In this document: positions 55,959-58,007 of the stretch, in pieces
Numbering within the stretch: the first letter of the stretch is position 1
How the letters are laid out: every line of letters starts with the position of its first letter
Assembly (NCBI GenBank): GCA_028227395.1
Contig: JAOIZZ010000007.1
Span: forward strand, 1-64,000
Source of the DNA: Woeseiaceae bacterium
GTDB lineage: Bacteria > Pseudomonadota > Gammaproteobacteria > Steroidobacterales > Woeseiaceae
DNA: 64,000 nt
Direction of reading: 5' to 3'
The notes under the pieces: model-generated
What the model saw: only the letters and a program-made list of their open reading frames with translations
Told to the model about the DNA's origin: nothing
Databases searched by the model: none
Position numbers and translations under genes: made by a program

Positions 55959-56927
55959 GTGACTAACGAACATAATGACATAGATGATAAGCCAAAAAAC
56001 TTTTTTTCACGGCTAACTAGCGCCTTAAAAGGGAAAAAAGACGTTCTAAAAAATAACTTAGTCAATATTCTAACAACAAATAAAATCAATGAAGATCTAT
56101 TGGAAGAAATTGAAACTGAACTTATCATCGCAGATATTGGAGTTCATACTACCCAAAAAATAATCAATCAATTAAAAGAAAAAAGAAAGAAAAATTCTAA
56201 AAAAAATGAAGATCTAAAGCACAATATTAGAGATATTATGTTATCTATATTAGAGCCTGTATGTACTCCACTTATCATAAAAAATAATGATGATCCTTTC
56301 GTGATTCTAATGATAGGGGTAAATGGAGCTGGAAAAACAACCTCTATTGGAAAATTATCACGGTACTTTAAAGATCAAAATCATTCAGTAATATTAGCTG
56401 CCGGCGATACATTTCGCGCAGCTGCTATAGAACAACTTCAAGTTTGGGGCCAAAGAAATAAAATCGAAGTAATATCCCAAGAAACTGGCGCTGATCCTGG
56501 TGCCGTAATTTTTGACGCTCATGCATCTGCTAAAGCAAAAAAAATTAATGTACTTCTAGCGGATACCGCAGGTCGTTTGCATACACAAACAGGCCTAATG
56601 GATGAATTAATTAAAATAAAAAAAATTCTTAACAAACAATGCGATGCAGCACCGCATGAAGTTATGTTAGTTCTCGATGCCAGCCTTGGTCAAAATGCAT
56701 TAATACAAGCTGAAAAATTCAATGAAGCACTAGGTATAACTGGACTAATTGTCACCAAGCTCGACGGAAGTGCAAAGGGTGGAATCGTATTAAGTATCGC
56801 GGATAAACTAAAAATTCCAATCCGATTTATTGGTATAGGCGAGAAACTTGAGGATATGCAAGTCTTTAATCGTCATGATTACGTCAATGCTTTATTGAAT
56901 CTACCTCAAAATCATCAAAATAATTAA
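55959..56927 (+). CDS. ftsY: Signal recognition particle receptor FtsY
   Basis: GVNGAGKTTSIGKLS, AAGDTFRAAAIEQLQVW, LADTAGRLHTQTGLMDEL, TKLDGSAKGG; short N-terminal acidic region. Confidence 0.97.
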   Translation: MTNEHNDIDDKPKNFFSRLTSALKGKKDVLKNNLVNILTTNKINEDLLEEIETELIIADIGVHTTQKIINQLKEKRKKNSKKNEDLKHNIRDIMLSILEPVCTPLIIKNNDDPFVILMIGVNGAGKTTSIGKLSRYFKDQNHSVILAAGDTFRAAAIEQLQVWGQRNKIEVISQETGADPGAVIFDAHASAKAKKINVLLADTAGRLHTQTGLMDELIKIKKILNKQCDAAPHEVMLVLDASLGQNALIQAEKFNEALGITGLIVTKLDGSAKGGIVLSIADKLKIPIRFIGIGEKLEDMQVFNRHDYVNALLNLPQNHQNN

Positions 56928-56944
56928 ACTTTTTAAAAATGAGT

Positions 56945-56974
56945 AAATTTACGCATTTATCAAGTAAATTTTTT
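56945..56974 (+). terminator. Candidate AT-rich intrinsic terminator after ftsY
   Basis: AAATTTAC-11 nt-GTAAATTT perfect 8-bp stem followed by TTT. Confidence 0.45.
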
Positions 56975-57079
56975 AGTATTTTATTGAAATTTCCTCATAT
57001 CTTTAAACAGTAAACTACTGATTTATAAAGTTATTATAACTTATAGATGTATCTATTTGTAAAATCATTCACCATATTA

Positions 57080-57106
57080 TTAGCACTCAATCTTACTGAC
57101 TGCTAA
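57080..57106. promoter_or_regulatory. CIRCE-type HrcA operator
   Basis: TTAGCACTC AATCTTACT GACTGCTAA: left arm 9/9, spacer exactly 9 nt, right arm 8/9 of the CIRCE consensus TTAGCACTC-N9-GAGTGCTAA. Confidence 0.85.
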
Positions 57107-57143
57107 AATGTGTATCTTATTGATTAATATAGACATTGAATTT

Positions 57144-58007
57144 ATGGACATAGCTCTACCAAAAGTAAATTACGATTTAATACAGGCAGGTCCTGTTGGA
57201 AGCCTTGATGCTTATATTCAAGGTATAGGTATTATTCCCGTTCTCAGTAAAGAAGCTGAACAAAAACTTGCGCGTAAATATAATAATGAAGAAGATCTTC
57301 AAGCAGCAAGAGAACTAGTAATGGCGCATCTTCGCTTCGTCATCCATATCGCAAAAGGTTATAAAGGCTATGGCCTTCCATTAGAGGATCTAATTCAAGA
57401 AGGTAATGTCGGGCTTATGAAGGCTGTAAAACGCTTTGATCCTGATTTTGGAGTGCGCCTAGTCTCATTTGCCGTACATTGGATTCGAGCTGAAATTCAT
57501 GAGTATGTGCTTCGTAACTGGCGTATCGTGAAAGTTGCTACAACAAAAGCGCAACGTAAATTATTCTTTAATCTTCGTAAGCAAAAAAAGAGTTTGAGCT
57601 GGTTGTCCTCAGAAGAAACCAAAGCCGTAGCAGACGATCTTGGCGTCTCAACAACTGAAGTATCAGAAATGGAAAAACGTCTAAGCTCTCGCGATATGAC
57701 ATTTGATCCAACACCTAGCGATAATGATGACAATAACAACTACAATCCTTCGGCCTATCTACCAAATCCTGATAGTGATCCAGCAACAGCGGTCGAAAAT
57801 GAACAATGGCATAATAATGCTGTCAGTAAAATGCAAGAATCTTTAGCATCGCTCGATAATCGTAGTCAAGATATTCTTCGCAGTCGTTGGTTAGCAGAAA
57901 AGAAAGAAACATTGCATGAATTAGCCGATAGGTATGATGTCTCTGCGGAAAGAATAAGGCAAATTGAAGCCAATGCTATTAAGAAACTTCGTCACTCTAT
58001 GCAATAA
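57144..58007 (+). CDS. rpoH: RNA polymerase heat-shock sigma factor (sigma-32)
   Basis: GSLDAYIQGIGIIPVLSKEAEQKLA, HLRFVIHIAKGYKGYGLPLEDLIQEGNVGLMKAVKRFDPDFGVRL, RpoH box QRKLFFNLRK. ORF opens at 57108; the likely start is MDIALP at 57144. Confidence 0.95.
   Translation: MDIALPKVNYDLIQAGPVGSLDAYIQGIGIIPVLSKEAEQKLARKYNNEEDLQAARELVMAHLRFVIHIAKGYKGYGLPLEDLIQEGNVGLMKAVKRFDPDFGVRLVSFAVHWIRAEIHEYVLRNWRIVKVATTKAQRKLFFNLRKQKKSLSWLSSEETKAVADDLGVSTTEVSEMEKRLSSRDMTFDPTPSDNDDNNNYNPSAYLPNPDSDPATAVENEQWHNNAVSKMQESLASLDNRSQDILRSRWLAEKKETLHELADRYDVSAERIRQIEANAIKKLRHSMQ

Follow-up and report, generated by a model that had tools for sequence, protein, structure and literature searches.

A predicted HrcA operator within the promoter of rpoH in a Woeseiaceae bacterium and in hrcA-bearing relatives

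The stretch of DNA analyzed here (64 kb from a Woeseiaceae bacterium, hereafter the window) carries on its plus strand rpoH, the gene for the heat-shock sigma factor sigma32 (57144..58007, 287 amino acids; TIGR02392 rpoH_proteo, 400.8 bits for a cut-off of 323.1), with ftsY as its upstream neighbor on the same strand (55959..56927; TIGR00064, 349.3 bits for a cut-off of 260.7). In the 216-nt gap between the two genes, positions 57080-57106 read TTAGCACTC AATCTTACT GACTGCTAA, a predicted CIRCE operator of the form TTAGCACTC-N9-GACTGCTAA, which is palindromic and is given on the plus strand, the one reading into rpoH. Compared with the consensus TTAGCACTC-N9-GAGTGCTAA with its exact spacer, the site agrees at 17 of 18 bases and keeps the 9-nt spacing; the single mismatch is a G to C change at the third base of the right arm. 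From base composition, sites with at most one mismatch are expected 1.4e-7 times in the ftsY-rpoH gap and about 0.001 times in the whole genome. The window holds no other match with three or fewer mismatches (mean of 0.04 in shuffled sequences), nor do the contigs of the 1.62-Mb genome in a pattern search for full-length sites. The CIRCE that the preliminary description had placed here is thus borne out, far above chance.

The operator ends 37 nt before the rpoH ATG at 57144 and overlies the predicted -35 and -10 elements. An alternative in-frame ATG at 57108 would open a 299-aa ORF; since this codon overlaps the predicted -10, the start at 57144, already thought probable in the preliminary description, is the likelier one. 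An Rfam scan of the CIRCE/rpoH region gave no match. As regards gene order, rpoH directly follows ftsY in the window's genus (55959-58007 in the window). At a Woeseia locus (L084), rpoH is preceded by genes for an ATP-binding cassette protein and a membrane protein; we take these to be ftsE-ftsX, the pair that occupies the corresponding place in E. coli. It seems that ftsEX was lost or moved in the window's genus, whose genomes are small (1.1-2.0 Mb).

Sequence alignment suggests that the operator is embedded in a housekeeping promoter. When rpoH sites are aligned on CIRCE, the right arm followed by A-A-T forms TGCTAAAAT, an extended -10. In the window this predicted sigma70-type element, TG-C-TAAAAT (57101..57109, plus strand), overlaps the right arm, and the pattern TGCTAnnnT recurs in 129 of 131 rpoH sites. 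A weak -35-like hexamer, TTAGCA (57080..57085, plus strand; 4 of 6 positions), lies in the left arm, 18 nt before the -10. The promoter scan scored 9 of 12 matches over both hexamers with a TG before the second, a level that equally many sites reach in shuffled sequences. The predicted rpoH transcription start is near 57116. CIRCE sites at groES have a different surrounding: the last T of the extended -10 is present in 99% of 143 rpoH sites versus 3% of 37 groES sites, and the latter show a TTGA-containing sigma32-type -35 upstream in 97% of cases, with a matching -10 in the profile. This contrast shows that the promoter features at rpoH do not simply come with CIRCE.

The genome encodes the cognate repressor, for which the preliminary description had suggested a search. 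A complete hrcA is found at G000:C50:30391-31056 (TIGR00331 equivalog, 313 bits for a cut-off of 197), adjoining grpE (locus L001); the divergent gene is presumably an NAD kinase, named by reading its protein. The hrcA gene apparently starts with TTG. Of the further sites that had been proposed for inspection, the one at groESL was found: contig C11 opens on groES-groEL, and its first bases, AGCACTCTTCATAATTGAGTGCCAA, form a CIRCE with 25 of 27 bases present. The first two bases of the operator fall beyond the contig end, so the pattern search missed it; the site is complete in the sister genome G003. No CIRCE was found at the hrcA-grpE operon, where the best match upstream of hrcA has 8 mismatches, and across the order a CIRCE with at most four mismatches lies upstream of hrcA in only 3 of 31 loci. 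A CIRCE at the hrcA operon is common among CIRCE systems and is not a requirement. The predicted HrcA regulon of this genome therefore consists of groESL and rpoH, and HrcA is predicted not to be autoregulated through CIRCE. An automated search for a sigma32 promoter before hrcA returned one weak candidate in this genome, TTGACCATCAGTCTCCGCAT, which was not used, and relatives showed nothing consistent.

The same arrangement extends through the order. The nearest named relatives by RpoH are Woeseiaceae, Steroidobacteraceae and similar Gammaproteobacteria. CIRCE occurs in 57 of 60 related genomes, typically twice per genome, and in the loci that we fetched the usual pair is groES and rpoH; the few extra sites lie at hrcA (two genomes) or beside none of the tested genes. 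All 80 named related rpoH loci, from close and distant relatives alike, carry the site with 0-2 mismatches, 25-109 nt before the matched coding region. In the shuffled control, even 3 mismatches were reached only once in 1600. Both hrcA in the genome and a conserved repeat upstream of rpoH, on which the preliminary description had let its proposal depend, are hence in place.

We then compared 144 rpoH upstream regions drawn class-wide from GTDB Gammaproteobacteria (which include the beta-proteobacteria) at least 90% complete, accepting CIRCE sites with up to four mismatches. The regions are those of the best RpoH matches, which favors RpoH proteins like that of the window and under-samples distant types. 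Of 119 genomes that have hrcA, 110 carry CIRCE ahead of rpoH, compared with 4 of the 25 that lack hrcA (Fisher p=1.5e-14). Genomes within a family are not independent, so a count by family is fairer: the site is present in 69 of 73 sampled families with hrcA versus 1 of 14 without. The exceptions run in both directions. Nine sampled genomes have hrcA and no CIRCE at the best rpoH; conversely, a good CIRCE was found with no hrcA in G139, G169, G039, G048 and G054, possibly owing to assembly gaps. In families with only a partial loss of hrcA, the site is decayed in G205 (versus G069 and G300) and in G123 and G238 (versus G326), while G169 keeps it; G047 has neither hrcA nor an rpoH CIRCE. Where hrcA is lost, the CIRCE at rpoH thus usually decays. 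As a prediction from sequence, HrcA control of rpoH is well supported. The preliminary description had proposed that HrcA represses sigma32 synthesis in this lineage; the proposed control stands, while its restriction to the lineage does not, since the rpoH CIRCE is class-wide in hrcA-bearing Gammaproteobacteria and was predicted in Geobacter in 2004.

A second promoter is nested in the same element in most relatives. In 97 of 131 rpoH loci, GGAAC is found 15-17 nt upstream of CIRCE (0.12 expected at one position by shuffling), and GAAC occupies the expected position in 88% of 143 rpoH CIRCE loci versus 3% of 37 groES loci. The spacer usually starts with NAA, and TCTAA is accordingly the commonest reading across arm and spacer. 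In these relatives, left arm and spacer form the -10 of a predicted sigmaE promoter, GGAACT-N17(18)-TCTAA, in the layout of the sigmaE consensus; E. coli rpoH P3, TGAACT-N17-TCTGA, has the same register. In the window, the flank profile shows ATCATT (57064..57069, plus strand) where relatives carry the -35 GGAACT, and the sigmaE promoter is absent. Neither this nested promoter nor the overlap of operator and promoter core had been pointed out in the preliminary description.

The sigma factor itself also went undetected: a search of nine genomes of the window's genus, two of them 99% and 93% complete, gave no RpoE match at E<=1e-3. RpoE is otherwise present in most of the family, and it scores over the cut-off in 43 of the 60 related genomes searched. 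Within the order, the sigmaE -35 is present at 39 of 41 rpoH loci of genomes with RpoE versus 1 of 10 without. Six of these ten loci belong to the window's genus; G033, G041 and G048 represent lineages of their own, and the one exception comes from G042, a genome of 82% completeness. The window's genus has, as far as sequence tells, lost the sigmaE half of the element and kept CIRCE and the housekeeping -10. The association is strong within the order; the class sample has only 3 CIRCE-bearing genomes without RpoE (p=0.11), and the -35 is missing at its expected place in 22 of its 111 genomes with RpoE. Among class genomes lacking hrcA, an intact sigmaE promoter in the right context was matched in G205 only; that loss of hrcA spares the promoter is therefore suggested by G205 and E. 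coli rather than by a general count. In one family of the order, G055 (L016) has RpoE and no sigmaE -35 at rpoH, and its family-mate G041 (L017) has neither, a hint that loss of the promoter half may come first and loss of rpoE later. In family f54 (L289, L294, L269), a CTTCTAAT- or CCTCTAAT-like sequence, which may be a further promoter element, recurs directly ahead of CIRCE at the rpoH sites that lack a sigmaE -35.

With two promoters overlapping the repeat, we may ask whether the palindrome is conserved only for its promoter elements, HrcA having no role at rpoH. Several of its bases do double as bases of the sigmaE or sigma70 -10; such constraint alone would conserve TC, AA and TGCTA..T, but would leave unexplained GCAC/GAGTG, the exact 9-nt spacer and the identity with the groESL operator. 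Furthermore, the palindrome is usually lost where hrcA is gone, and the left arm is still perfect in the window's genus despite the absence of a sigmaE promoter. We regard this explanation as very unlikely. Inverted repeats at the 5' end of a transcript can also affect mRNA stability, as CIRCE is described as doing in Bacillus, and the repeat might accordingly act at rpoH as an mRNA hairpin influencing transcript stability or translation, not as a DNA operator. A sigmaE transcript would indeed start within the repeat. The predicted sigma70 start, however, lies downstream of it, with the -10 at the right arm, so that the repeat would not be transcribed from the sigma70 promoter. Changes in the arms are uncompensated (the G to C change at one right-arm position recurs alone), and presence of the site follows hrcA. 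A hairpin role thus appears, if anything, still more improbable than purely promoter-based conservation.

What we observed is how this sequence is built, how well it is conserved and how it co-varies with hrcA and rpoE. Our preferred reading, to which we give a probability of a little over 0.8 as a whole, is that the rpoH CIRCE is a working operator at which HrcA, gated by GroEL, would sit over the promoter core and repress rpoH, and that the window's genus has lost RpoE and the sigmaE promoter. HrcA binding, repression and promoter use are what we infer from such patterns, and gating by GroEL is taken from established HrcA biology. HrcA on CIRCE would block RNA polymerase by covering the -35, where the left arm lies, and the extended -10, which the right arm overlaps. 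As long as the temperature is normal, GroEL would keep HrcA active, holding rpoH and groESL expression low. Once GroEL is taken up with misfolded protein, HrcA would leave the DNA; groESL would be derepressed directly and sigma32 would be made, which would then add sigma32-driven groESL expression. Repression of groESL by HrcA and its activation by sigma32 would together give two routes, coherent with each other, by which a shortage of GroEL leads to more of it. In most relatives the operator also covers the sigmaE -10, and envelope stress may thus raise sigma32 only if HrcA allows it or is outcompeted. In the window's genus, HrcA over the housekeeping promoter would be the only visible transcriptional input to rpoH.

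In E. coli, sigma32 is controlled mainly after transcription. In the window's genome and its relatives, HrcA might likewise bind at rpoH and mainly tune its basal expression, with sigma32 governed chiefly by mRNA structure and protein stability as in E. coli. Such post-transcriptional layers can coexist with an operator, and the size of the HrcA effect is not readable from sequence; on the other hand, that a nearly perfect operator is conserved throughout the class points to an effect that is more than marginal. We hold a merely tuning role to be rather unlikely. It is compatible with HrcA acting at rpoH and differs from our preferred reading only in how much HrcA matters.

A survey by Permina and Gelfand (2003/2004) reportedly treated heat-shock regulons of beta-, gamma- and epsilon-proteobacteria and would be the likeliest earlier report of a CIRCE at rpoH in the class. 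Apart from this survey, which was not covered, we found no description of HrcA at rpoH in Gammaproteobacteria in the literature searched. In Geobacter sulfurreducens, a perfect CIRCE upstream of rpoH is listed at position -51 and HrcA control is predicted (Rodionov et al. 2004, PMC545781); as a prediction, control of rpoH by HrcA therefore has a precedent. As in our genome, groESL is the constant partner. Geobacter, however, belongs to a different class, no nested sigmaE and sigma70 promoter is described there, and its hrcA-grpE-dnaK operon also has a CIRCE, unlike the hrcA operon of our genome (PMC545781). With the Bacillus-type system (groESL, hrcA-grpE-dnaK), this genome shares the operator consensus, the spacing, the repressor family and the groESL target; it differs in that the targets include a sigma factor gene and that in most of the order the hrcA operon has no CIRCE. 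RpoE was first identified through E. coli rpoH P3 (PMC8103513), a sigmaE promoter with the 17-nt register of the window's relatives. HrcA is absent from E. coli and CIRCE from its P3 region, whereas the window's genus has CIRCE and no sigmaE promoter. In the beta-proteobacterium Bordetella bronchiseptica, SigE-driven transcription from the fam (rpoH) promoter was shown in vitro (PMC3490749), as we propose for the sigmaE-type factor of the window's relatives; the portion of that text searched does not mention HrcA. For the nested operator-promoter architecture, its class-wide spread and the two-way pattern of loss, our limited search found no earlier description, which is weak evidence of novelty.

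The textbook account of sigma32 control comes from E. coli, a species without HrcA. In HrcA-bearing gamma- and beta-proteobacteria, the distribution of sites suggests that the two classic heat-shock circuits are probably wired in series, a link lost in E. coli. On balance we favor a more general proposal: hrcA-bearing Gammaproteobacteria, beta-proteobacteria included, would have a composite rpoH promoter, with a single operator lying over the -10 of sigmaE and that of the housekeeping factor alike; sigma32 synthesis would thereby report on GroEL capacity and envelope stress together. E. coli P3 would then be a remnant left after the loss of HrcA, and streamlined lineages such as the window's would have lost the sigmaE half and kept HrcA. 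Nature offers a direct way of testing the idea: when rpoE is lost, and usually also when hrcA is lost, the half of the element that belongs to the lost gene disappears. If it is true, GroEL state, envelope stress and housekeeping transcription would be three inputs joined at a single element of ~50 bp, and E. coli would be a derived exception in a class where, in large part, a chaperonin-sensing repressor stands above sigma32.
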